Positions 32,889 through 51,749 of a DNA stretch of 64,000 bases are shown one piece after another. The stretch comes from Gilliamella sp. ESL0405. GTDB taxonomy: Bacteria > Pseudomonadota > Gammaproteobacteria > Enterobacterales > Orbaceae. Position 1 is the first letter of the stretch. Every line of letters starts with the position of its first letter. The translations under genes and the position numbers were made by a program. The notes under the pieces are model-generated. The model was not told the DNA's origin. It did no database searches and saw nothing but the letters and a program-made list of their open reading frames with translations. The DNA is taken from assembly GCF_019469205.1 (NCBI RefSeq), contig NZ_CP048265.1, positions 992,001 to 1,056,000 of the forward strand, written 5' to 3'.

Positions 32889-34505
32889 ATGAGTATAGAA
32901 ATAAAATTACCTGATATTGGTAGTGATGAAGTTGAAGTCACGGAAATTTTAGTTAAAGTCGGCGATCGGGTTGAAGTTGATCAGTCGTTATTAACCGTTG
33001 AAGGTGATAAAGCATCAATGGAAATTCCTGCGCCACAGGCCGGGATCGTCAAATCAATCATCGTTAAAGTGGGCGACAAAGTTAAAACTGGCGTCAATAT
33101 CATGGTATTTGACGAAGAGGGCGCTAACGCAGCGTCCGCCAGCACTGAAACCAAAGCCACTGATGCGCCAGCTACAACACCGGCTGCCCCGGCAAACAGC
33201 GCAGCGACAGCCAGCAAAGTGGTTGATGTCACTGTACCTGATATCGGTGGTGATGAAGTTGAAGTAACTGAAATTTTAGTCAAAATCGGTGATAGTGTTG
33301 CGGTTGATGACTCGCTAATTACTGTTGAAGGCGATAAAGCGTCAATGGAAGTACCGGCAACAATAGCTGGTATTGTGAAAAATATTACAGTCAAAGTGGG
33401 TGACAAAGTCAAAACCGGCTCTAAAATCATGGAGTTTGAAGTCACAGCCACAGCGGCACCGGCAAGCCCAGCGACAACAACAGCGCCAGCACCTGCGGCA
33501 AAAACTGATGTGGCACCGGTTGCGGTAGCCAGCGCTCCGGCAACGACGGCACCTGCGGTTAAAACCGCTGATGACTTTGTTGAAAATGACGCTTATGCTC
33601 ACGCCACGCCGTCTGTGCGTCGCTTAGCACGTGAATTTGGCGTCAATTTAGCAAAAGTACCACCGACAGGTCCTAAACATCGTATTTTACGTGAAGATAT
33701 TCAAGCTTACGTTAAAAATGCTGTTAAACAAGTGGAAACCGGCGCAGCTTCCGGCGCATTACCGGGCTTACTGCCATGGCCAAAGGTTGATTTCAGCAAA
33801 TTTGGCGAAGTGGAAAGCTTACCGCTAACCAAAATTCAGAAAGTTTCTGGGGCAAACCTACACCGAAATTGGGTGATGATCCCGCATGTGACTGAGTTTG
33901 ATGAAACCGATATCACTGATCTTGAAGCATTCCGTAAGCAACAAAACGCCGAAGCGGACAAAAAGAAACTTGATGTTAAAATCACTCCGTTAGTGTTTAT
34001 TATGAAAGCGGTCGCTAGTGCCTTAACGGCTTATCCACGCTTTAACAGCTCACTATCGGAAGATGCGCAAACGCTCATCATTAAAAAATACATCAATATT
34101 GGTGTTGCGGTAGATACGCCAAATGGTTTAGTCGTACCGGTATTTAAAGACGTCAACAAAAAAGGCATTATCGAACTATCACGTGAACTGGCTGAAGTAT
34201 CGAAAAAAGCCCGTGAAGGTAAGTTAACCGGCGCAGATATGCAAGGGGGATGCTTCACCATTTCAAGCCTTGGCGGTATTGGTACTACCTCATTTACACC
34301 AATTGTCAATGCGCCTGAAGTCGGTATTTTAGGGGTATCACGCTCAAGTATGAAACCGGTATGGAATGGAAAAGAATTCACACCACGCTTAATGTTACCT
34401 TTATCACTATCATTCGATCATCGAGTGATTGACGGGGCAGATGGTGCACGCTTCTTAAGCCATATTGCTAACGTATTATCCGACTTACGTCGTTTAGTGA
34501 TGTAA
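32889..34505 (+). CDS. aceF: Dihydrolipoamide acetyltransferase (E2 of pyruvate dehydrogenase)
   Basis: Forms the core of the complex and passes acetyl groups to CoA. The 538-aa protein has two lipoyl domains (about residues 2-75 and 110-183), each with the lipoylated Lys in the sequence [10 protein letters not shown] or [10 protein letters not shown]. They are joined by Ala/Pro/Thr-rich linkers and followed by a subunit-binding domain ([16 protein letters not shown]) and the catalytic domain with His in [11 protein letters not shown]. coli AceF has three lipoyl domains, so this is a shorter but common two-domain form. Confidence 0.98.
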
Positions 34506-34520
34506 AGGAGGCTATCATAT

Positions 34521-35945
34521 ATGAGTCAAGAAGTTAAAACCCAACTTGTGGTATTAGGTGCAGGGCCAGCGGGATACTCCGCAGCCTTCCGAGCAGCCGA
34601 TTTAGGATTAGACGTCACTTTAGTTGAACGCTATTCAACCTTAGGTGGTGTGTGTTTGAATGTGGGCTGTATTCCGTCAAAAGCTCTACTTCATGTGGCA
34701 AAAGTGATGGATGAAGCTAAATCCTTAACCGCTCATGGCATCCATTTTGGCACGCCAAAACTCGAACTTGATAAAGTGCGTGAATGGAAAGAAAAAGTCA
34801 TCAATCAATTGACTAATGGCCTTGCCGGCATGGCAAAAATGCGCAAAGTCAATGTGATTCAAGGTGAAGCGCAATTTACCGGTAGCCATACTATGGATAT
34901 CACATCAGCAAAAGGCATTACTAAACTTACGTTTGACAATGCGATCATTGCGGCTGGATCGCGTCCTATTACACTACCGTTTATACCGCACGATGACCCA
35001 AGAATATGGGATTCAACCGATGCGCTGGCGTTAACCACCATTCCGAAAAAATTATTGTTAATGGGTGGCGGAATTATCGGTCTGGAAATGGGCACGGTAT
35101 ACCATGCGCTAGGTTCTGAAGTGGACGTGGTTGAAATGTTCGATCAAGTCATTCCGGCAGCCGACAAAGATGTGGTAAAAGTCTTCACAAAACAGATTCA
35201 GAAGAAGTTTACCTTAAGACTAGAAACCAAAGTCACATCCGTTGAAGCAAAACATGACGCAATTTACGTCACCATGGAGAAAAAAGACGGCACAAGCGAA
35301 ACACATACTTATGATGCCGTATTAGTGGCAATTGGACGCACACCAAACGGAAAATTGATTGGCGCCGAAAAAGCTGGGGTCAATGTTACCGACCGTGGCT
35401 TTATTGAAGTCGACAAACAGATGCGCACCAATGTACCGCACATTTATGCTATTGGCGATGTGGTAGGTCAACCAATGCTTGCCCATAAAGGTGTTCACGA
35501 AGGACACGTTGCAGCCGAAGTGATAGCCGGTAAAAAACACTACTTCGATCCAAAAACTATCCCGTCGATTGCTTACACCGAGCCGGAAGTGGCATGGGTT
35601 GGATTAACCGAAAAAGAAGCCATTGCTAAGGGAATCGATTATGAAGTAGCGATCTTCCCATGGGCAGCATCCGGACGAGCAATTGCCTCAGATTGTTCAG
35701 AAGGGATGACCAAACTGATCTTCAACAAATCAGACAATCGCCTATTAGGCGGAGCGGTTGTTGGCGCAAATGGCGGAGAACTACTGGGTGAAATCACCCT
35801 AGCGGTTGAAATGGGTTGTGATGCAGAAGATATAGCCCTAACCATCCATGCCCACCCAACCTTACACGAATCGATAGGCTTAGCGGCAGAAATCTACGAA
35901 GGAACAGTCACCGACCTTCCTAATGCCAAAGCAGTGAAAAAATAG
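34521..35945 (+). CDS. lpdA: Dihydrolipoamide dehydrogenase
   Basis: FAD-linked E3 enzyme shared by pyruvate and 2-oxoglutarate dehydrogenases and the glycine system; it reoxidises lipoamide with NAD+. The 474-aa product (E. coli 474) has the FAD motif GAGPAGYSAAFRAAD, the redox-active pair Cys45-Cys50 in GGVCLNVGCIPSK, the NAD motif GGGIIGLEMG and the C-terminal His-Glu pair in HAHPTLHES. AGGAGG lies 12 bases before the start. It is the last gene of the operon and has a terminator. Confidence 0.98.
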   Translation: MSQEVKTQLVVLGAGPAGYSAAFRAADLGLDVTLVERYSTLGGVCLNVGCIPSKALLHVAKVMDEAKSLTAHGIHFGTPKLELDKVREWKEKVINQLTNGLAGMAKMRKVNVIQGEAQFTGSHTMDITSAKGITKLTFDNAIIAAGSRPITLPFIPHDDPRIWDSTDALALTTIPKKLLLMGGGIIGLEMGTVYHALGSEVDVVEMFDQVIPAADKDVVKVFTKQIQKKFTLRLETKVTSVEAKHDAIYVTMEKKDGTSETHTYDAVLVAIGRTPNGKLIGAEKAGVNVTDRGFIEVDKQMRTNVPHIYAIGDVVGQPMLAHKGVHEGHVAAEVIAGKKHYFDPKTIPSIAYTEPEVAWVGLTEKEAIAKGIDYEVAIFPWAASGRAIASDCSEGMTKLIFNKSDNRLLGGAVVGANGGELLGEITLAVEMGCDAEDIALTIHAHPTLHESIGLAAEIYEGTVTDLPNAKAVKK

Positions 35946-35966
35946 TCACGATTCACCAAAAAAAAC

Positions 35967-35992
35967 AAGCCGTCAATAACCTTGACGGCTTT
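35967..35992 (+). terminator. Terminator after lpdA, followed by a C9 run instead of a T run
   Basis: A 10-bp stem AAGCCGTCAA / TTGACGGCTT lies 22 bases after lpdA. The usual T tail is only 3 T long and is followed by nine C (35993-36001), very unusual in this AT-rich DNA. Termination may be partly lost, or supported by the repeats downstream. Confidence 0.75.
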
Positions 35993-36026
35993 CCCCCCCC
36001 CACAAAACCCAACACCATAGCCAATT

Positions 36027-36345
36027 TTGACAAGAACTTTCAGAAAACACCTATGTTTTAGTATAAAAATAAATTTTTAAAATTTTTTTGAACATATCCC
36101 AAAACCCAAACCGTTATCTTTCGCAATAACTTAAAAGGAGCACAAAAGACCTTGTCAAGAACTTTCAGAGAATACCTACGTTTTAGTATAAAAATAACTG
36201 TTCATGATATTTTCAAAAATATCGAAAAATCCACATTGCTATCTTTAATAATAACTTAAAAGATACACAAAACCTTGACAAGAACTTTCAGAACCCCCTG
36301 CGTTTTAGTGTTAAAGTTACAAATATCTATTAAATCAGACAAATA
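36027..36345. repeat. Left-hand array of three direct repeat units (about 124 bp each)
   Basis: Units start at 36027, 36152 and 36275 (periods 125 and 123). Each begins TTGACAAGAACTTTCAGA (TTGTCAAG in unit 2), runs through an ACCTAYGTTTTAGTATAAAA-like core and ends near ATAACTTAAAAG. Unit 2 holds a palindrome GATATTTTCAAAAATATC. Unit 3 stops short before the next gene. The same unit appears at 43053-43200. The 470-base gap between lpdA and the next gene therefore consists almost wholly of these repeats. Confidence 0.85.
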
Positions 36346-36415
36346 ATTGTCACATAACTACCATATCATTTATAATTCAGTTACCTATCTTAAAGGTCTA
36401 AAAAGGAAGTGGATC

Positions 36416-38152
36416 ATGTCATATTTCAACGATAATAGTTTAGAGATAGCTCGCTGGCATTGTTCTTTTAATTTAGAGAAGTATTTTGAAGGTAAACCAC
36501 TTGGCGGTCGTTACAATAAAAACCATAAATATGTTGCTACTTGGTATGCAAATCGTCTTCCGCTCGAAAAATCTAAAACACTCGTTGAAGTTATTTTTAT
36601 CAATTTAACCGATCCCACCTATATAAACACGAAAACTGGCGAGGAATGTCAGAGTTTCTTTAAGATTACTTTACCTATCAACTACCTTCATAAAGTTCCA
36701 TTCGGCAGCATTTGGCAGAATGGTGAATCGAAATATAAGTTCAAACTTAAAGAGTTCAAAGTTACCTTTTCAAAGAACGAGGGATTAACTTATAAGCCTC
36801 TTTGGATGGATAAAATATCTCACCCTTTTGAAGCGGATAAATATGTTAATTCGTCTTATCTGAATACATTCAAAGGGGATGGAAATCAATTACTTGTCAT
36901 CAAACCTGAAAGCGAAAATAAGTCCTATATCGTTCACCCATTACATTTCTTTATGGCTCACTACGGCTATTCTAGCGAATTAAAACGTATATTGATTACG
37001 GATGACTGGAGCAAGGTTGAGCAGAAGTTACGTTTGAACGAATCTTTCAAAGAAAAAGGCGTATTTGTACCGAATCACCTTTCCACGAAAGATGCCGTAT
37101 TTCTTTATCATTTGAAATACGATGCTTATACAAAAAAAGTAGTGAAAGATGTAACTGAAAAAATCATTAGTTCCAAAGGTCAAGCAAATCCAAAATATCT
37201 TATTCCTTGCTGGCACGACCAACTCATAAAGCTTTCATTCTATGGGATTGAGTTAGGAAATTCCGTACTTTGCTGCCAGATTACAGGTATTAGCCAACCG
37301 CAAGGCGAGCCAATTAATCTTTATTACCATTCTCCAATAAAAGTAAGTAAAGATGGCAAAAAGCAAGTCCATGACGAACCTCAATACAGAACACGCAAGT
37401 ACGAACGAGAACATGAACTTGAAAAACTTGATATTGCATTAGATAACGTCAACAACCTTGTAACAGTAGATGTTGTTGAATACCTGAAATTGCTTGGAGA
37501 ACAACGAGAAATAAATCGAATTCAACTTACTCAAGAAGCTCAAAAAGTCGGTAATGTTAAATTATTAAATTACGATGAGCCTGAAAACTACGGTGTCGGA
37601 GAAAAAGAAGGAAAAACTGGTAATACAGGTATTGCTAACTGTTTTTACGATATTTTGAATAAAGATGAAATTGAAGGTAAGTCACGCCTAGACACAATTT
37701 GGGAGCATGCTAAACGCCTACGCAATGAACAAGATGCTAACGTTTATTGGTACACACCTAAGCGTGGTTTTAATGTACTTGATGATTTTGCACTGGTTTC
37801 TTTGGAAGATGTTTGTGAGTCATTGAATCAATATTATCCTTCTTGTGTGTTGATATTACGTATAGATATTAAACAAAGAACATTCTTTGTGTTTAGTTTT
37901 CCTGTGAGAAACGAAAAAGAGAATGCAGGTTTTAGTAGTGTCGTTTACGAACCTCAAAATATTCAACAATTCCTTGACGTTTATCGCCGAGATGAAAACC
38001 TATTCAAGCTACTTATTGAAATCATATCAAACGAGGGGGTAAGCAGCGATTACGTTGATTCTAAAAATGGAAAAATGTCTCTATTTAGACATGTAGAAGC
38101 TAAAAAGACGAACAATAACTGGGTTTGGAATGGTATTAAGAAATTACTTTAA
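36416..38152 (+). CDS. Protein of unknown function, possibly TnsE-like, in the accessory island
   Basis: A 578-aa protein I do not recognise with confidence. No signal peptide or membrane helix is seen; it is rich in Lys, Asn and Tyr. Recognisable blocks are IVHPLHFFMAHYGYSSELK (about residue 180), CWHDQLIKLSFYGIELGNS (near 285), ITGISQPQGEP, and a C-terminal alpha/beta part with CVLILRIDIKQRTFFVFSF. The order of blocks recalls Tn7 TnsE (538 aa): a middle segment on a hydrophobic helix pair, a glycine-containing beta segment and a C-terminal domain. I start at ATG 36416, with AGGAAG 7 bases upstream; a TTG at 36347 has no such site. It precedes gajAB by 229 bases. The TnsE idea is inference and could be wrong. 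Confidence 0.6.
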   Translation: MSYFNDNSLEIARWHCSFNLEKYFEGKPLGGRYNKNHKYVATWYANRLPLEKSKTLVEVIFINLTDPTYINTKTGEECQSFFKITLPINYLHKVPFGSIWQNGESKYKFKLKEFKVTFSKNEGLTYKPLWMDKISHPFEADKYVNSSYLNTFKGDGNQLLVIKPESENKSYIVHPLHFFMAHYGYSSELKRILITDDWSKVEQKLRLNESFKEKGVFVPNHLSTKDAVFLYHLKYDAYTKKVVKDVTEKIISSKGQANPKYLIPCWHDQLIKLSFYGIELGNSVLCCQITGISQPQGEPINLYYHSPIKVSKDGKKQVHDEPQYRTRKYEREHELEKLDIALDNVNNLVTVDVVEYLKLLGEQREINRIQLTQEAQKVGNVKLLNYDEPENYGVGEKEGKTGNTGIANCFYDILNKDEIEGKSRLDTIWEHAKRLRNEQDANVYWYTPKRGFNVLDDFALVSLEDVCESLNQYYPSCVLILRIDIKQRTFFVFSFPVRNEKENAGFSSVVYEPQNIQQFLDVYRRDENLFKLLIEIISNEGVSSDYVDSKNGKMSLFRHVEAKKTNNNWVWNGIKKLL

Positions 38153-38229
38153 ATACTAACTCTAAGGAATTTCTGTAACGGTATACTTTTCTTGGCGAGA
38201 AACCTAGCGATATGATGATCATAAACTAG

Positions 38230-38322
38230 CTTGATTACATAACAAGAGAGCAAGCTATTAGTGATGGTACCATTAACCAGTATTGGATAGATAATACGAC
38301 TGGGGAAATGGTTAGAAAATAA
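38230..38322 (+). pseudogene. Decayed coding fragment between the island gene and gajA
   Basis: An open stretch of 30 codons reading LDYITREQAISDGTINQYW and ending EMVRK before a stop has normal amino-acid composition but no start codon; a stop lies directly upstream. It looks like the last part of a lost gene. The whole gap 38153-38381 otherwise holds only broken frames. Confidence 0.35.
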
Positions 38323-38381
38323 AAATTGAAGCCTAAATCTAAAAGTGTGTTATCAAGCAGTAAATTGTGGGAAAAGAGTAA

Positions 38382-40511
38382 ATGTATATATCGAAAGTAA
38401 GTTTAGTCAATTATAGAAATTTTAAAAATGCTAAGGTGATTTTAAATAAAGGAATTAATACCATAATTGGTGAAAATGCATCAGGTAAAACGAATTTATT
38501 TAGAGCTATACGATTACTATTGGATGATTCGCTATTATCTTCAGCTTATAAATTAAATGAAAATGATTTCAATAGAGAATTAGGAAATGATTGGCGTGGG
38601 CATTGGATTATTATCAGTATTGAATTTAAGGATGTGAGTAATGATGAAGGTATTCAGGCTTTATTTTCTCATGGTGCTGAAAATATCGACTCTCCAGATA
38701 GAGCAACTTACAATCTATTTTTTAGGCCTAATAAAAGTATTAGATATAAATTATCAAAGTTGCAAGAAGGTGATCAAGATTCACTTAAAGAATTATTAAA
38801 TAATATATCAGTCGAAAATGACTATGAAGTATATTTTACGGGCAGAAGCACTGTCGATTTTAATGATCCAGAAACCTATCTAGAACTAGTTGGTGACTTT
38901 TATAATGTGATTTTTCCCGAACACATTGATGACTCGAAATTTGGCGCTAAGATTCCACATCAACTGTCTATCTCTAAGGATTTATCTTTTACATTTATTC
39001 AAGCATTAAGAGATGTAGTTAGTGATTTTCATAGTAATAAAAATAATCCATTATTAACTTTAATGAAGCATCAAAGTGAGAAATTAGATACGTCTGTATA
39101 TGTTCCAATCAGTGGGAAAATACAAGAGTTAAATCAAGAAATTGAAGCGTTAGAGAAGGTTAAAGAAGTTAGAGAAGATATCAAATCTACACTATTAGAT
39201 ACTACAGGAGTAACTTATACCCCCAAATCTTTATCAATTAAATCAGGTATTTCAGATGAAGCAGAGAAGATGTTACAGTCTTTAAAATTGTATATTGGTG
39301 AGACATCTGAGGATTTTGAAGGTGGAATTCACGAATTAAGCCTAGGTGGAGCTAACCTGATATTTTTGACTTTGAAGCTACTAGAATTTAAATATCAGAG
39401 AGCCAAAGAGACTTTGGCTAATTTTTTGATAATAGAAGAGCCTGAAGCACATATTCATAACCATATACAAAAAACACTTTTTGACCGTATTAATTATTCC
39501 GATACCCAAATTATTTATTCAACACATTCAACACAAATATCAGAAGTGAGCAATGTGAAGAATATGAATATATTGTCTAGAAAGGGTGTTTCAACAGAGA
39601 TATATCAACCATCACATAAATTAGAAGATAAAAATATTACTCAGATTCAAAGATATCTAGATATAGTCCGTTCCAATTTATTGTTTGCTAAAGGAGTTAT
39701 TTTAGTAGAGGGAGATGCAGAAGAGATCATTATCCCTATTTTAGTAAAACAAGTTTTTGGTATTAGTTTAGATGAGCTAGGAATTAGTTTAATCAATATT
39801 GGTAGTACAGGGTTTCAAAATGTAGCTCAGTTATTTCACAATGATCGTATTCAAAGAAAGTGTGCAATTATAACCGATTTAGATGCAGCTATTTGTGATG
39901 TCAATATTATTGAAGATGATAGCGATAAAAAGAAAAAATATAAAAATAGGGTAAAGCGCTCAGCAAAGAAAGGTATCGAGCGTAAAAAAAAATTAGATGC
40001 TTTTATTAATGGTAATCATTGGTTGAGAGCTTATTATGCGGAACATACTTTTGAGGTGGATTTTACTAAAGCAAGCGAGTTAAATAAAAAGGCAATATCT
40101 GGTTTGGTTGAGCAAATTTATACTGATGAAGATACAAAACAATTGTCTCTAACGGAAATTACCTCAGGTAAAATAGCTGTCTATGGAAAAAGAGTTCTAA
40201 CCATGGCAAATCAAGTTGGTAAAGGATGGTTTGCAATTATGGTAGGAGGAATAATAGACTATAGAACTATAATTCCAAATTATATATTAGATGCTGTAGT
40301 CTTTGCTAAAGATGAATATTCACCAAAAGTGATAGCACAAATAATTCGATATAGATTAAAGCAATTAGAGATATCCGAGAACGATATTAACAATCTGCTG
40401 ACAGCGTATCTTGAGGATAATAATTTGAAAAAGATAATTCATAAGTTAAAGATTACTATTCCAGAGGATCAGTTGATTAATTTTTTCGAGAAGATAAATA
40501 AAAATGTTTAG
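38382..40511 (+). CDS. gajA: OLD-family ATPase/TOPRIM nuclease, Gabija GajA-like
   Basis: An overcoming-lysogenisation-defect (OLD) class 2 protein: an ABC-type ATPase that controls a TOPRIM DNA nuclease. Over 709 aa one sees Walker A GENASGKTN (30-38), a coiled-coil-like insert around 230-275, the ABC signature LSLGGAN (319-325), Walker B FLIIEEPEAH (348-357), the H-loop THS (381-383), then TOPRIM acidic residues Glu443 in LVEGDAEE and Asp499/Asp501 in ITDLDA. It is directly linked to a UvrD-like helicase by an 8-base overlap, the arrangement of Gabija anti-phage systems, where GajA cleaves DNA when nucleotide levels fall. It is longer than the founding GajA (about 580 aa). Confidence 0.88.
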   Translation: MYISKVSLVNYRNFKNAKVILNKGINTIIGENASGKTNLFRAIRLLLDDSLLSSAYKLNENDFNRELGNDWRGHWIIISIEFKDVSNDEGIQALFSHGAENIDSPDRATYNLFFRPNKSIRYKLSKLQEGDQDSLKELLNNISVENDYEVYFTGRSTVDFNDPETYLELVGDFYNVIFPEHIDDSKFGAKIPHQLSISKDLSFTFIQALRDVVSDFHSNKNNPLLTLMKHQSEKLDTSVYVPISGKIQELNQEIEALEKVKEVREDIKSTLLDTTGVTYTPKSLSIKSGISDEAEKMLQSLKLYIGETSEDFEGGIHELSLGGANLIFLTLKLLEFKYQRAKETLANFLIIEEPEAHIHNHIQKTLFDRINYSDTQIIYSTHSTQISEVSNVKNMNILSRKGVSTEIYQPSHKLEDKNITQIQRYLDIVRSNLLFAKGVILVEGDAEEIIIPILVKQVFGISLDELGISLINIGSTGFQNVAQLFHNDRIQRKCAIITDLDAAICDVNIIEDDSDKKKKYKNRVKRSAKKGIERKKKLDAFINGNHWLRAYYAEHTFEVDFTKASELNKKAISGLVEQIYTDEDTKQLSLTEITSGKIAVYGKRVLTMANQVGKGWFAIMVGGIIDYRTIIPNYILDAVVFAKDEYSPKVIAQIIRYRLKQLEISENDINNLLTAYLEDNNLKKIIHKLKITIPEDQLINFFEKINKNV

Positions 40512-42318
40512 TTGGAGCCAAGATGAATTAATACAGGAGCAATCGAATGCTATTTTAAGTGATCAGAACGTTCTTTTGGTGGCCTGCCCAGGGAGTGGAA
40601 AAACAAGAACACTAACCTATAAAATTGCTCTTGAACTGAGTAAATTAGATTCAGAAAAGAAATTTATTATTGCAATTACTTATACCAATAATGCAGCAGA
40701 TGAAATTAGAGATAGAATTGAACTGCTAGGAGTTGATACTCAGCAACTTTGGATTGGAACAATACATGCATTTTGTTTGGAATGGATCTTACGACCATAT
40801 CATCAATATTTACCAGATTTAAAATATGGGTTCAGTGTTATAAATTCTTATGAATCTGAAAAAATCTTAACAGATTTATGTAGCACATATACCTCTGAAA
40901 AACTTAAGATAACTTATTGGGATTGTGGTTATATAGCAACTACATCAGGCGATAAACTTATGTGCTCAAACACACGAAAGCACGATGTATTGAATAAAAT
41001 ATACGAAGACTATTTCAATATTCTTGAAAAGAGCAAGCAGATTGATTTTGAACAAATATTGAAGTTTTCTTATAAGTTATTAGAGCAAGAACCTAAAATT
41101 CTTATGATATTAAATAAGCTTTTCTCATACATTTTAGTTGATGAGTATCAAGATACTAAAGATATTCAATATCATATTTTAGCCCTAATTATAAAATCAG
41201 ATCCAAAACAAACAAAAATATTTATTGTTGGAGATCCCAATTAGGCTATTTATGGCGGTTTAGGTGGGATATGTAAAAGTAAAAGAGAGTTAGATATATT
41301 GTTTAATATTAATTTTCAAGAACTTAGTTTAACTATGAACTTTCGTTCTTCTTCACGGATTGTGAATTATTTTGAAAATTATAAAATTTCTTCAAATACA
41401 ATTTGTGCAGCAGGAATTCATAGAGACTACCCGAGCTTAATTACTTACAATAAATCAGTCAAGCTAGATAATTTATTAGATGAAGTAGAAAGACTGATTT
41501 TATTAAATATTAATGAAAAGAAAATCTTACCTACAGAGATTTGTATTGCTGCTCCACAATGGGTATGTGTTTCAGCTCTAACCCGAAAATTAATAGCGAA
41601 AATGCCTGACTATAGTTTTAATGGACCAGGAATAGCCCCATTTTCTAGAGATATTGAAAATTTTTGGTACAAGTTAACAAAAATTTTTTTAACAGAACCA
41701 TCCCCTGATATGTATCTGAAGCGTTTAAGATGGTCTAAAGAAATACTTGAGCAGTTAAATCTACATGGGATGCATATTGTAGATTTAACCCCAAAGCAAT
41801 TACTTAAGGTTTGTAATTCACTAGACATAGTTGAGACTAGAGGAATAAGCTTTTTGGAGAGAAGTTTTAAACAATTTTGTTTAAGGTTAGGCTTGAATAT
41901 TAGTGTATTCCCAATTTTGTTGGAGCAACAAGAAGCATTTATTAAAAGTGCTTATAATAGATTGGATAAATTGCGTAATGAAGGCATTACAGATGCTGAT
42001 ACAACATATAATTTTAAAAAAATATTTAGACAAAAAGATGGGATTACAGTTTCTACGATACATGGAATAAAAGGTGAGGAGTATGATGTTGTTATTGCTA
42101 TAGCTCTTTTAAATGATTATGTACCGCATTTTGCTGATCATGATTCACTAAAAGAGGAAAATGCAAAAAAGATACTCTATGTGCTTTCATCTAGAGCAAG
42201 AAAAAATTTACATTTAATTTCAGAAAGAATGAGAAGCCCTAATTGCAAGTATGCTCCAAATGGTAAATCTCCCACGCCTCAACTAGAGAATTACGCTTTT
42301 GAATATGATGAATTTTAA
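40504..42318 (+). pseudogene. gajB: UvrD/PcrA-type helicase, Gabija GajB-like, interrupted by an in-frame amber codon
   Basis: An SF1A helicase of about 604 codons. Motif I CPGSGKT is at 28-34, Ia AITYTNNAADEI at 57-68, II LVDEYQDT at 211-218. Motif III should read GDPxQAIYG, but codon 247 is TAG (41242-41244) where Gln (CAG) is expected. The same frame then continues AIYGGLGGICKS, NFRSSSRIV (motif IV), STIHGIKGEEYDVV (motif V) and LYVLSSRARKN (motif VI) to a normal stop at 42318. Without readthrough a 246-aa fragment with only part of domain 1A results. A TTG at 41299 could restart the second half, but no good ribosome-binding site is apparent. Confidence 0.88.
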
Positions 42319-42458
42319 TGGTCTGATATTCATATATTTGTTTTATTTCTATAATCTATATTCGAAGTAAATTCTTGTATGATACTTTATTGAGTGCTAA
42401 ATTCTTTAGATCATGTAGTTACATGATCTAGAGTTGCAAACTTCATTGTCCGTCCACA
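42319..42458. other. Intergenic stretch after gajB
   Basis: About 140 AT-rich bases. An imperfect inverted repeat CATGTAGTTACATG (42414-42427) is the only structure seen; it could end the gajB message but no T run follows. Confidence 0.4.
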
Positions 42459-42630
42459 TTAAAAACTAGAGATTAAACAATGATAAATATATTGTGGTTG
42501 GAGATAATTCTTATCTTCACAACGATAGTAGGTAATACCATGAATTCGTACAACATCATCTCGTTTTGACTTTTTACCATGATGTCATGCAAATTGTACA
42601 ATACTACACAAATAAGTTCCATTTATTCAT
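42459..42630 (-). pseudogene. Decayed second gene of a coupled pair at the island's right edge
   Basis: An ATG at 42630 overlaps the end of the upstream minus-strand frame (ATGAATAA), a layout typical of translational coupling. The frame reads MNKWNLFV and then hits a stop; shifting frame, it resumes with HHGKKSKRDDVVRIHGITYY and runs to LISSF and a stop at 42459. The composition is protein-like. I take it as a gene broken by at least one stop and one frameshift. Its family is not recognisable. Confidence 0.4.
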
Positions 42631-42925
42631 CTTCGGTTAAGTTTGGCTTTTTGTAGAGTTCAATTAACCATTGAGAATAGCGTTTTTTTAGTTGCTTCGC
42701 TTTCATCTGCTGAATCATTTCTCGATCAATATCTAATTCTCGGTTGTAATCTAATTTCATATGGTTAATAAAGCCTGTAATTGCAGCCATTTTCCCTGAT
42801 TTCATTGTGAAATAGTTGGTTAACTGTTCTTGCGTTGGAAAATGTATCATGTTGTTTGAGCTAATTAAATCAATTGCAGGTTGTAAGGTCAGTCGAAGAC
42901 CGCTTTGAGTGGTGCTGCGAGGGGG
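42623..42925 (-). pseudogene. Truncated gene fragment, possibly from a site-specific recombinase
   Basis: An open frame of 100 codons without a plausible start upstream; the first ATG gives 75 aa (MIHFPTQEQLTNYFTMKSGK onward). A frame before the ATG (STTQSGLRLTLQPAIDLIS) also looks coding, so the 5' end has been lost at the hairpin boundary. The pattern PTQEQLTNYF-x4-GK-x-AAITGFINHM, followed by a basic helix, recalls the N-terminal part of some island-borne tyrosine recombinases. This is a memory-based guess. It is translationally linked to the decayed frame downstream. Confidence 0.4.
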
Positions 42926-42927
42926 TT

Positions 42928-42959
42928 ATTAGGGGGATTTCGCAAAAAATCCCCCTAAT
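42928..42959. repeat. Strong inverted repeat (13-bp stem) at the island's right edge
   Basis: ATTAGGGGGATTT (42928-42940) pairs perfectly with AAATCCCCCTAAT (42947-42959) around a 6-base loop. It coincides with the loss of the reading frame of the adjacent fragment. It could be a terminator, or the edge of a mobile element. Confidence 0.75.
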
Positions 42960-43009
42960 TCGGACGCAGACACCGGAATGAAAATATCAATCAATTAACA
43001 GCGTCCGAA
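42959..43009. repeat. Second inverted repeat, 9-bp arms with a 33-base loop
   Basis: TTCGGACGC (42959-42967) and GCGTCCGAA (43001-43009) are perfect inverted copies. It abuts the 13-bp hairpin. Together these make an 82-base structured region between the gene fragment and the right-hand repeats. Its function is unknown. Confidence 0.65.
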
Positions 43010-43052
43010 ACCTGCATACCAAAAACTCGAAACTTTCAGCGAAAGTAAAATC

Positions 43053-43200
43053 TTGTCAAGAAGTTTCAGAAAACATAGGTGTTTAAGCAAAAAACACAAA
43101 TTTTTGTCAAGATCCTTCTGAAAACACCTACATTTAAGTATAAAAAAAATTTTAAGATATTTTCAAAATATCCCCATTATTTACAAGGAACTTAAAAAAT
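43053..43200. repeat. Right-hand copies of the island-flanking repeat
   Basis: A short unit begins at 43053 (TTGTCAAGAAGTTTCAGA) and a fuller one at 43104 (TTGTCAAGATCCTTCTGAA), in the same orientation as the left-hand array. The second includes the palindrome GATATTTTCAAAATATC (43156-43172) and CTTAAAAAAT at its end, where it meets the PTS EIID stop codon. Read on the minus strand, that palindrome is followed by a T run, so this copy also serves as a likely terminator of the PTS operon. Confidence 0.8.
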
Positions 43201-44019
43201 CCCCAACACCACCCCAACAGTGGTAATCGCTGTTAAAATAAGAATAACTTTCGTTGCGCTAAGCTGTTTTGCCGACACCAACCACCAAGCAATAAGCACC
43301 ATTGACAGCGGTAATATTTTCGGGAAGATATCATCAAGCACACTTTGCAATGATCGCATCGACTCACCCATCGGGATTTCCAGCGTAGAGTTAAGTACAA
43401 TATTACCGGCGGCCAGCCCGCCTACCACCATAATGCCAAGTATATTAAAGGCATCGGTAATGCGTTTAACATTATCCCCGATAATATTATCGATCGCGTT
43501 AACGCCTAGCTTATACCCATAAAAGAAACTTAAATAAGAGATAAGCGGACCTAAAATCCCATAAGCGAGAATATAAAATAGAGGTCCAATCGGATTGCCA
43601 TTTGCTGCCATACCCATAGCAATCGATAATAGAATCGGCACAATAATGCCTTGAATAAGCGAATCACCGATACCGGCTAATGGCCCCATAAGGGTGGCTT
43701 TGATATTGATCGGTAGCTCTTCGGGGACATTTTTGCCTAAGGCTATCTCTTCTTCCATAGAAGCGACAATACCATTAATGATCTGCCCGGTTTGCGGTTC
43801 GGTGTTATAAAACATTGAATGCCGAATATATAACCGCCGTTTCGCTTCCGGATCGTCTTTGTAATATTTTTCAGCAAAGGGAATATAAGAAAATGCCCAG
43901 GCATGCGCCTGTAACTTTTCATAACTCATTGAGGATAAATGGGTAAATCCCCAGCGGTACCAAATTTGGCGTAACTCTTTTTTTGTCAATCTTGATTGAT
44001 TGTTAATGACTTTATCCAT
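43192..44019 (-). CDS. PTS system mannose-family EIID component
   Basis: Integral membrane subunit that with EIIC forms the sugar channel of a mannose-type phosphotransferase system. The 275-aa product starts with the EIID-typical LTKKELRQIWYRWGFTHLSSMSYE. It has the GIVASMEEEIALGKNVPEELP block and the GPLAGIGDSLIQGIIVPILLSI signature (split here by ordinary residues), and several C-terminal helices. It is the last gene of EIIA-EIIB-EIIC-EIID on the minus strand, 14 bases after EIIC. Substrate cannot be told from this subunit. Confidence 0.93.
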   Translation of the reverse strand: MDKVINNQSRLTKKELRQIWYRWGFTHLSSMSYEKLQAHAWAFSYIPFAEKYYKDDPEAKRRLYIRHSMFYNTEPQTGQIINGIVASMEEEIALGKNVPEELPINIKATLMGPLAGIGDSLIQGIIVPILLSIAMGMAANGNPIGPLFYILAYGILGPLISYLSFFYGYKLGVNAIDNIIGDNVKRITDAFNILGIMVVGGLAAGNIVLNSTLEIPMGESMRSLQSVLDDIFPKILPLSMVLIAWWLVSAKQLSATKVILILTAITTVGVVLGIF

Positions 44020-44033
44020 TAGTACAACTCCTA

Positions 44034-44864
44034 TTAAAACAGATCATCATCTTCAAATATGTCTGAATTTGTATCATTTGCTGGGTTATTATTGGCAACC
44101 GCTGGCTTGTTAGTTGCCATGTAATACAGGTAAGCGACCAAAGCGGAAATAAACACCAATGCGATCATGCTTAAGCCTGCAAACGCCAGTAACACAAAAC
44201 CGGCAAAGAAGAAAATTAACTGAATTTTAGATTTAATGACGATATTCATCAGCATCGCAATGCCCAGCGCCGGCAATACGCCACCTAAAACTGAGATGAT
44301 TTTGGTGATAACTTCCGGTACATGACTTAATAACCAGTCAACTAAACCCGAACCGTAAAAAATAGCTAAAAATATCGGCACGGCTCGAATCAAAAAGGTG
44401 GTAATTTGCGGATAGATAAGATGATTTAGCACAATACCTCGAGGATTATTGTTTTGTGCTGCTTGTTGCGCTTTGTTGTTCCAAAACGAATAAAGCGCCA
44501 TGCGGGTATTATAAAATATCAAACCAAAAGTCTGTCCGATAAGTACCGATAATGTGACGGCAACCGCCGGCTCTTTCGTGGTGGCTAACGCTAAACCAAT
44601 ACCGCCATAAGCGGCGTAGGTAATTTCACTGTTGGTGGCGCCGCCGGTGGATAGATTAGCAATAAACACCGCCTGCACCGCTAAGCCACACGCCACCCCA
44701 GATTGAATATCCCCAAAGGCAAAGCCAACAAGTAAGCCGGCAACCAGTGGTCTACCTACCACATAAAAGCCACCGGACATCCCAAAAAGCCATGGGGATT
44801 CAATGGCGCCTAAGTAGCAAAAAATGGCGGTTAGTAGGGCAGGAATAAAAAGTATCGTTTCCAT
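44034..44864 (-). CDS. PTS system mannose-family EIIC component
   Basis: A 276-aa membrane protein of the PTS EIIC (mannose/sorbose) family. It shows GRPLVAGLLVGFAFGDIQSG, with typical helix breaks, and GGATNSEITYAAYGGIGLA. The acidic tail (DTNSDIFEDDDLF) is cytoplasmic and unusual in length, and resembles the acidic end of the EIIA protein of the same operon (DSDDSLDF). It is followed by EIID after 14 bases. Confidence 0.92.
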   Translation of the reverse strand: METILFIPALLTAIFCYLGAIESPWLFGMSGGFYVVGRPLVAGLLVGFAFGDIQSGVACGLAVQAVFIANLSTGGATNSEITYAAYGGIGLALATTKEPAVAVTLSVLIGQTFGLIFYNTRMALYSFWNNKAQQAAQNNNPRGIVLNHLIYPQITTFLIRAVPIFLAIFYGSGLVDWLLSHVPEVITKIISVLGGVLPALGIAMLMNIVIKSKIQLIFFFAGFVLLAFAGLSMIALVFISALVAYLYYMATNKPAVANNNPANDTNSDIFEDDDLF

Positions 44865-44888
44865 GATGTTTTCCTCTTAAATGGAGCC

Positions 44889-45380
44889 TCATAAGGTGTC
44901 ATATCGTTTTTTCATCACCGACCAGCTTTTCGGTTCGTCATCCGGTAACAGTTGAAATTCGAGCGTGATACCGTGGCTTTCCAGATAGTCAAAAGCTTGG
45001 TAGTCATTTTGATCAATAGCAACCGTTCGACCGAGTACCTTAGCGCCGGCTCGAGTATTCATACAGCCGATATTGAGTGTGGGATTGAGTTTTGCACCTG
45101 CTTTAAGGAGTTTTTCAAACGTTTGCGGCGAATCGCTGATTAGAAAAAAATTTTTCGTTGATTCCATGCCTTGCTGAATCTTATCAACCCCTTGGGCGAC
45201 GGTATAAATACCAATTTTCAAATTACCGGCAGCGGCTTTTAATACCCTTTTGCGTAACTCATCGGCGGCAATATTGTCACCTACAACCAGTATGCCGTCG
45301 ACCGGTCTCACTTTAGTCCAACGTGTCATAATTTGACCATGAATAACACGATCATCGACTCGGGTTAATGTAATTGTCAT
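44889..45380 (-). CDS. PTS system mannose-family EIIB component
   Basis: Cytoplasmic phosphocarrier that passes phosphate from EIIA to the incoming sugar. The 163-aa product has the phosphorylated His14 in RVDDRVIHGQIMTRW. It also has the usual NIGCMNTRAGAKVLGRTV segment near the middle. Here it is separate from EIIA, as in sorbose, fructose or N-acetylgalactosamine-type systems, whereas E. coli ManX fuses the two. Confidence 0.94.
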   Translation of the reverse strand: MTITLTRVDDRVIHGQIMTRWTKVRPVDGILVVGDNIAADELRKRVLKAAAGNLKIGIYTVAQGVDKIQQGMESTKNFFLISDSPQTFEKLLKAGAKLNPTLNIGCMNTRAGAKVLGRTVAIDQNDYQAFDYLESHGITLEFQLLPDDEPKSWSVMKKRYDTL

Positions 45381-45407
45381 CGCTGTAAACTCCTATCTGA
45401 TTACCTA

Positions 45408-45830
45408 TTAAAAATCTAAACTGTCATCACTATCGATTGCCGTTTTAGCAAGTGTTACCGCACTTTGTGCTACCTCGACAATCGATTGAACTGCCGCTTG
45501 AATATCGCCAGCCTCTTCTAACGCTGTCCCTGCCTGAATCAACATCGGTAAATTCAAACCGGCAATAAGAAACACCCGATCCGGATGAGCTAATGCATAA
45601 CGTAACGTTTCGTTATAGGGCGTACCGCCTACGATGTCACTTAAAACGATAACCCCATTTTGCTCCGTTAATAATTGGTCTAGGGTTTGGGTTAATCTTG
45701 CCGAAAAATCACCAATGCCGGATTCATCGAGTTTGACCGCAATAAAACAGGCGCTATCGCCCGCTATCATTTGGTAGCTGGATAAAATCCCTTCGCACAA
45801 ATTTCCGTGTGACGTGACTACTATCTTCAT
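45408..45830 (-). CDS. PTS system mannose-family EIIA component
   Basis: Takes phosphate from HPr. The 140-aa product opens MKIVVTSHGNLCEGILSSYQ with the phosphoryl-accepting His8, and has LSDIVGGTPYNETLRYAL, typical of mannose-family EIIA. GGAGG lies 7 bases before the ATG. It is the first gene of the PTS operon and is divergent from deoC; two candidate regulator sites lie between them. Confidence 0.94.
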   Translation of the reverse strand: MKIVVTSHGNLCEGILSSYQMIAGDSACFIAVKLDESGIGDFSARLTQTLDQLLTEQNGVIVLSDIVGGTPYNETLRYALAHPDRVFLIAGLNLPMLIQAGTALEEAGDIQAAVQSIVEVAQSAVTLAKTAIDSDDSLDF

Positions 45831-45864
45831 TATCGTTCCTCCATTGATTGTACGATCGGTATAA

Positions 45865-45880
45865 ATATATATTTACATAT
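45865..45880. promoter_or_regulatory. Candidate GntR operator on the PTS side
   Basis: ATATATATTTACATAT is an imperfect palindrome (arms ATATATA / TACATAT) 35-50 bases before the EIIA start. It shares TATTTACATATTG with the site before deoC. GntR-family operators often follow GT-N-TA-N-AC, and this fits loosely. Confidence 0.5.
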
Positions 45881-45924
45881 TGAATTTGGCATAACAAATA
45901 GATTATGTTTTATTTGTTTGATTT

Positions 45925-45940
45925 TGGGATGTTTATCACA
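45925..45940. promoter_or_regulatory. Candidate CRP site between the divergent PTS and deoC promoters
   Basis: TGGGA-N6-TCACA differs from the CRP core TGTGA-N6-TCACA at one position. It lies midway between the two operons, where one CRP dimer could activate both. Confidence 0.45.
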
Positions 45941-45958
45941 AATTGGTGGCAATATTGA

Positions 45959-46000
45959 TTGACAAAAGAAAGATTGTTTCTAATATATGTATTTACATAT
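45959..46000 (+). promoter_or_regulatory. deoC promoter with overlapping GntR operator
   Basis: A -35 TTGACA (45959-45964) and a -10 TAATAT (45981-45986), 16 bases apart, face deoC. The palindrome ATATGTATTTACATAT (45985-46000; arms ATATGTA / TACATAT) covers the -10 edge and the start point, a repressor-type position. Confidence 0.6.
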
Positions 46001-50663: not shown

Positions 50664-51749
50664 ATGAAATCATCCATTATCAGTAAGTTGGAGACTCTAC
50701 AAGAGCGTTATGAAGAAGTTCAAGCGTTATTGTCAGATGCCGCTGTTATTGCAGATCAAAACCGTTTTCGCACCCTTTCAAAAGAGTATGCTCAATTATC
50801 CGGCGTGGTGAAGTGCTTTGCTAGCTGGAAACAGACACAAGAAAATATTGAAACGGCTAAAATGATGCTATCTGATCCTGAAATGAGTGAAATGGCACAA
50901 GAAGAGCTGGATGAAGCATTGGGTCAAGTTGAGCAACAAGAAAAAGAGTTGCAAGTTCTGCTATTACCAAAAGATCCGAATGACGATTACAACTGTTTTG
51001 TTGAAGTCAGAGCAGGTACCGGCGGCGATGAGGCGGCCATTTTTGCCGGCGATTTAGCCCGTATGTATACCCGTTATGCAGAATCACGTAACTGGCGAGT
51101 TGAAATTATGAGCGCTAGCGAAGGCGAACATGGTGGCTATAAAGAAGTGATTATGCTTGTCAGCGGTGACGGTGTTTATGGTAATTTAAAATTTGAATCC
51201 GGCGGGCATCGTGTGCAACGTGTGCCGGAAACTGAATCACAAGGGCGTATTCACACCTCCGCTTGTACCGTTGCGGTTTTGCCGGAGATTCCGGAAGCTG
51301 AAATGCCAGAAATCAATCCGGCTGATTTAAAAATCGATACCTACCGTTCATCCGGTGCCGGTGGTCAGCATGTTAATACCACCGATTCAGCGATACGTAT
51401 TACCCATATTCCAACCGGTATTGTGGTGGAGTGTCAAGATGAGCGCTCACAGCATAAGAACAAAGCCAAAGCGATGTCAGTGTTAGCGGCGCGTATTCAA
51501 GATGCTGAAACTCGTAAACGCCAGCAAGAAGAAGCCTCAACTCGACGTAACTTATTAGGGTCGGGTGATCGCTCAGATCGCATTCGAACTTACAACTATC
51601 CGCAAGGTCGGGTGACCGATCATCGTATAAACCTAACAATTTATCGTTTAGATGAAGTCATGGAAGGTAAGTTAGAAATGTTAATCGATCCAATTGTTCA
51701 AGAGTATCAAGCTGATCAATTGGCTGCTTTATCGGAACAGGATGAATGA
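50664..51749 (+). CDS. prfA: Peptide chain release factor 1
   Basis: RF1 reads UAA and UAG stop codons. The 361-aa product (E. coli 360) has the GGQ motif at residues 233-235, which triggers peptide release and is methylated by PrmC, and the codon-recognition region with [13 protein letters not shown]. Its presence matters for the interrupted gajB: UAG is read as a stop by RF1 here. It overlaps prmC by 4 bases (ATGA). Confidence 0.97.

Follow-up and report, generated by a model that had tools for sequence, protein, structure and literature searches.

Gabija is a widespread two-gene (gajA and gajB) defence against phages, and the closest described systems are the Gabija loci of Bacillus cereus VD045 and Pseudomonas aeruginosa PA14. 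According to the available parts of the published reports, defence needs both Gabija genes (PMC10781630) and is abolished by deletion of either one (PMC10822852), and in the PA14 system the ATPase and the DExx residues of GajB are required for it (PMC12407980, preprint). In the accessible text of PMC10681800, GajB of B. cereus is described as having no helicase activity, either alone or together with GajA. The same protein consists of domains 1A (residues 1-72 and 157-223), 1B (73-156), 2A (224-305 and 417-494) and 2B (306-416); its residues 1-223 bind GajA, and its C-terminal region does not (available part of PMC10822852), the main GajA contacts being located in 1B (available part of PMC10781630). 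GajA, in turn, is inhibited by nucleotides at the concentrations found in the cell, and its overexpression is not toxic to E. coli (available part of PMC8136825).

The locus described here was found in a stretch of 64,000 nucleotides of the genome of Gilliamella sp. ESL0405 (hereafter the window). It differs from the B. cereus system in the size of GajA (709 vs 578 aa; PMC10822852, available part) and in GajB, which in B. cereus is shorter (494 aa vs 604 codons here) and distant in sequence: a phmmer search with this GajB recovered none of the Gabija GajB chains at E 1e-10, and the family profile matched at E 3e-25. Unlike either of the two described loci, it has a gajB with a stop codon at motif III.

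The interrupted gajB and its surroundings

The features on which the analysis rests are as follows (window coordinates).

38382-40511, + strand: gajA, OLD-type nuclease (AAA ATPase and TOPRIM) of 709 aa, intact; PDLC00072, E 1.6e-294, positions 1-708 of 709; Pfam AAA_15 and OLD-like_TOPRIM
40504-41244, + strand: 5' part of gajB, a stub of 246 aa comprising domain 1B and the greater part of 1A; PDLC00127 positions 1-241, Pfam UvrD-helicase, predicted fold
40582-40605, + strand: Walker A, ACPGSGKT, intact; invariant in the alignment with 19 relatives
41140-41154, + strand: Walker B (DExQD box), DEYQD, intact; alignment with 19 relatives
41242-41244, + strand: in-frame TAG in place of the motif III glutamine (residue 247); translation, genome record, alignment to PcrA
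41245-42318, + strand: 3' part of gajB (rest of 1A, 2A, 2B), 357 open codons that retain coding character; PDLC00127 positions 243-593, in-frame codon usage, no significant decay
41299-42318, + strand: earliest possible in-frame restart past the stop, a TTG that would give 339 aa, with a weak Shine-Dalgarno-like stretch
50664-51749, + strand: prfA, release factor 1 (RF1, which reads UAG), intact, outside the Gabija locus; TIGR00019, 578.8 bits at a cut-off of 423.25

A Gabija-like helicase gene gajB of about 604 codons with one TAG at 41242-41244 had been predicted from the sequence, and this was confirmed by translation, by the genome record and by the PADLOC GajB profile PDLC00127. The frame occupies 40504-42318 on the + strand (604 codons and the terminal stop), and TAG, at residue 247 in the context VGDPN-stop-AIYGG, is its single in-frame stop, with no second lesion across the 604 codons. 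The genome record (one contig of 2.81 Mb, completeness 99.97) carries the identical TAG, a single one, in the segment C1:1032504-1034315. The piece before the stop matched positions 1-241 of the 594 positions of PDLC00127 (E 3.7e-105), and the piece behind it matched positions 243-593 (E 7.9e-125); both pieces thus fall on one GajB profile with one residue missing between them, showing that this is one gene, cut once.

With respect to the composition of Gabija, GajA has the AAA ATPase and the OLD-type TOPRIM, and the UvrD-like gajB stands directly behind gajA, its start overlapping the gajA end by 8 bases. Full-length GajB with all SF1 motifs is absent, as TAG replaces residue 247 in motif III, and because of this interruption the locus was filed as a broken Gabija rather than as a working system.

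Position of the stop codon

The SF1 helicase PcrA relies on its motif III glutamine to couple the hydrolysis of ATP to work on DNA. The stop aligned with Gln254 of PcrA (sequence alignment, counted by hand), and in structure comparison each of the four PcrA entries listed placed the end of the predicted stub fold at residue 253. Glutamine occupied this position in all 30 gajB relatives found via GajA, in 16/16 other loci recovered with the GajB profile from the order and phylum surveys, and in 79/79 viral-contig loci covering the position (80 examined of 239 matches), many of the 79 being other SF1 helicases and the three sets possibly overlapping. The placement of the amber codon on a conserved motif III glutamine, as originally predicted, is therefore borne out, and the stop is common to no homologue examined (30 relatives, 16 survey loci, 79 viral-contig loci). 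Both glutamine codons occur at this position among the 30 relatives. A single substitution would turn any of 249 of the 604 gajB codons into a stop, so that a hit on the conserved glutamine needs no special cause; a stop at most of those 249 places would have the same effect.

Stops recurring in GajB were considered and rejected. The order survey, in which 10 of 394 genomes (own included) had GajB at E 1e-60, listed stops inside three other GajB matches; one of these proved to be the C-terminus itself, and the remaining two matches were free of stops as far as the alignment reaches (residue 574-575). In the phylum survey (10/398 genomes with GajB, own included, some of them the same genomes as in the order survey) only the stop of the window itself was listed.

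Relatives of the locus

The search with GajA gave thirty relatives in named genomes, which by title are mostly Bacteroidota, along with Acinetobacter, Halomonas and others, and gajB adjoins gajA in every one of them. Nineteen of the thirty were aligned, their GajB being 34 to 58% identical to the GajB described here. The frame was open in 28/30 gajB and in 29/30 gajA genes. Broken gajB copies, each consisting of two overlapping frames, belong to Flavobacterium undicola and a Bacteroidia genome (L042 and L050), and in a Halomonas metagenome-assembled genome (L047) gajA is interrupted by a stop. Like the locus of the window, all three carry a single inactivating lesion in an otherwise conserved Gabija locus; they differ from it in that the gajB lesions are frame breaks at other positions and the gajA lesion is a TAA. 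A Gabija locus with a single lesion is thus no rarity.

Nearer relatives of the allele were found in none of the genus, plasmid, E. coli, phage and viral-contig searches. Within the genus (35 genomes, own included) the best other matches were about 30% identical to this GajB, and none of the other 34 genomes gave a GajB of this kind; the frame sizes of these matches suggest that they are housekeeping UvrD, Rep and RecB. DNA searches returned 2 plasmid records and 31 of 5426 E. coli genomes, all partial matches. At the protein level, 104 plasmid records were all below 60% identity, phage records gave no match at E 1e-40, and viral contigs gave none with this protein alone as query and 239 helicase relatives with the alignment as query.

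Age of the loss

The window retained every one of the 70 columns that do not vary among the 19 aligned relatives, 40/40 before the stop and 30/30 behind it, in agreement with the initial observation that the other helicase motifs are kept. With the comparison narrowed to the 11 closest of these relatives, it departed from the invariant columns at 10/101 before and 19/146 behind the stop (Fisher p 0.55). Behind the stop the window departed at 13.0% of the columns vs 0 to 8.7% for the 11 relatives, each left out in turn; before the stop, one relative (L044) departed more than the window (12.9% vs 9.9%). The differences from L044, the highest of the 11, were not significant on either side (p 0.27 behind the stop, 0.53 before). 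Codon usage in frame scored -3.817 per codon behind the stop vs -3.838 before it, the out-of-frame values being -4.52 to -4.90. Because there is no significant decay and codon usage behind the stop is gene-like, the loss of gajB looks recent by these conservation and codon-usage measures, as had been proposed, with slight decay possible.

Genomic context

The G+C content is 27 to 39% in windows covering the locus (36000-43500), and 43 to 49% and 38 to 48% in the flanks at 33000-36000 and 43500-46000, respectively. A locus was given for 29 of the other genomes in the genus; in three of these (L131, L134, L144), lpdA lies at most 0.6 kb from the PTS gene, which in the window stands at 43192, and the island is absent, whereas the others have different sequence behind lpdA, or their contigs end. 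The low G+C content, the lpdA-PTS junction without the island in three genomes and the lack of such a GajB in the other 34 genomes fit with a horizontal gain, by which the Gabija locus was probably acquired behind lpdA.

Several other elements were observed in and around the island. Imperfect repeats, 28-121 nt long and 65-89% alike, flank it at 36017-36292 and 43043-43163, possibly as a dispersed repeat or an insertion trace. Upstream of gajA, a gene of 601 codons (36347-38152, + strand) was matched by nothing in Pfam, PADLOC and PHROGs and by only one chance-level hit in NCBIfam. Within the order, relatives of it were found in 8 of the 393 other genomes, which belong to one family (f9); five are about 80% identical, no GajA or GajB was seen in flanks of about 1.5 kb, and the frames of some contain stops. 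Between gajB and the PTS gene lies an orphan open stretch of 100 codons (42623-42925, - strand), perhaps a gene remnant.

Reading of TAG in the genome

The possibility that the codon is read through by a suppressor, raised in the original prediction, was not supported. An Rfam tRNA search of the whole genome, with 150 of the 227 candidates scored, gave 52 matches, and none of the 50 that ARAGORN named had the anticodon CTA. A tRNA-Sec search of the genome produced no match above the cut-off. A scan for the loop-to-T-arm pattern found 14 places vs 30 in the reversed control, and none of the 14 is a CTA tRNA: 11 were checked, and those at 2022609, 2443169 and 2586453 are located within named tRNA-Leu or tRNA-Glu genes. 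One of the 14 places lies in RtT RNA. Apart from these, two adjacent degraded tRNA-like elements were noted at C1:865405-865567 (C1:865405 and 865496; L112 101-263), above the Rfam cut-off and unnamed by ARAGORN, which by eye resemble degraded tRNA-Pro(TGG) and tRNA-Lys(TTT).

Among the 45 open frames of at least 180 aa in the window (overlaps removed), TAG terminates eight, namely the frame ending at 41242, gajA and six others. Since no CTA tRNA was found within the stated scope of the search, RF1 is intact and TAG ends other frames, TAG is an ordinary stop in this genome. The marks of a TAG reassignment (code 15) were thus lacking, both as regards a CTA tRNA (50/52 matches named, 150/227 candidates scored) and as regards a missing RF1 or an avoidance of TAG as terminator. 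A TAG-to-glutamine code is described for phages in the available part of PMC11210395. The recoded phages (code 15, Crassvirales) resemble the present case in having TAG at a glutamine position, whereas here a single site is concerned, in a host with intact RF1 and with no CTA tRNA found. A gajB that senses the code, being completed only when a phage brings a glutamine-inserting amber suppressor tRNA, so that recoding switches Gabija on, appears exceedingly improbable; nothing supports it, because the stop is common to no homologue examined. In the available part of PMC12586679 Gabija is not mentioned.

Predicted consequences and alternative explanations

By far the best-ranking explanation is a recent nonsense mutation that struck the glutamine codon of motif III in gajB of an acquired Gabija locus, with the defence off; we put its probability at about 0.8. 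Its mechanism is carried over by analogy from the Gabija systems of B. cereus and P. aeruginosa. Ribosomes would halt at UAG with RF1, leaving a GajB stub of 246 residues. The predicted stub fold has a pLDDT of 90. Of the eight Gabija GajB chains listed, four place its end at residue 193, two at 198 and two at 208, in the numbering of the entries themselves. According to this model, the stub would include 1B and all but the final 15-30 residues of 1A, and nothing of 2A or 2B. An SF1 ATPase requires both core domains. The stub would thus retain Walker A, Walker B and the domain that faces GajA, 1B; with 1A cut short and 2A/2B gone, and motifs IV-VI with them, it would not make a working SF1 ATPase. 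GajA would still be produced, presumably as a nucleotide-inhibited, harmless tetramer, perhaps with the stub bound, as docking of the stub on GajA is possible by analogy. Since GajA and active GajB are both required, the anti-phage defence provided by this locus should be off. The idea that GajA alone may act is contradicted, as far as defence in the systems tested is concerned, by the need for both genes reported in the available parts of PMC10781630, PMC10822852 and PMC12407980.

The main rival is an error of base calling or assembly in the record, with gajB intact in the cell, which we consider unlikely. Such an error would account for a lone lesion in well-kept surroundings with no significant decay behind it, and the stop is known from one genome record; that genome, however, is a single contig with a completeness of 99.97. 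Furthermore, six same-frame pairs of open stretches of at least 100 codons are split by a single stop in the 64-kb window; gajB is one of the six, and the other five are gene neighbours, so that no second gene is divided in this way by an in-frame stop. In long-read assemblies substitution errors are less usual than indels, which also counts against an error.

Low-level natural read-through of UAG by a near-cognate tRNA, yielding a little full-length GajB and some defence, seems improbable. Near-cognate reading of UAG, including by tRNA-Gln, does occur at a low level in other bacteria, and two tRNA-Gln(ttg) genes are present in the genome; against this stand the intact RF1, the termination of ordinary genes by TAG and the lack of a CTA tRNA among the named matches, and, as no homologue examined has the stop, nothing suggests a selected recoding site. 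It is very improbable that the stub, or the stub together with a restarted C-terminal piece, is functional as a GajA-docked regulator or as a split GajB. The GajA-GajB contacts do lie in 1A/1B of GajB (PMC10781630, PMC10822852, available parts), and 1B would be present in a confidently predicted fold, which is no proof of stability; the stub, however, ends at the equivalent of residue 193, 198 or 208 of GajB, short of residue 223 of the B. cereus binding construct (PMC10822852, available part). As for the C-terminal piece, the TTG at 41299 with the weak Shine-Dalgarno-like stretch stands 55 bases past the stop, but another, later TTG scores better in this respect, so that the putative restart is not marked. 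None of the 30 relatives has such a split, the two broken gajB copies being frame breaks elsewhere.

Taken together, the data favour the nonsense mutation in gajB, which is an ordinary kind of gene loss. Among the literature matches listed, no title or abstract opening concerned an amber-interrupted gajB. The original prediction had supposed that GajA without GajB could be a burden, and this is contradicted by the non-toxic overexpression of GajA (PMC8136825, available part); a harmless GajA also fits with gajA remaining intact. The locus thus presents a natural case of gajA retained beside a cut gajB, in agreement with the harmlessness published for GajA alone. It also calls for caution in annotation: since each gajB piece by itself matches the GajB profile, a scan could count this genome as Gabija-positive despite the cut gajB.
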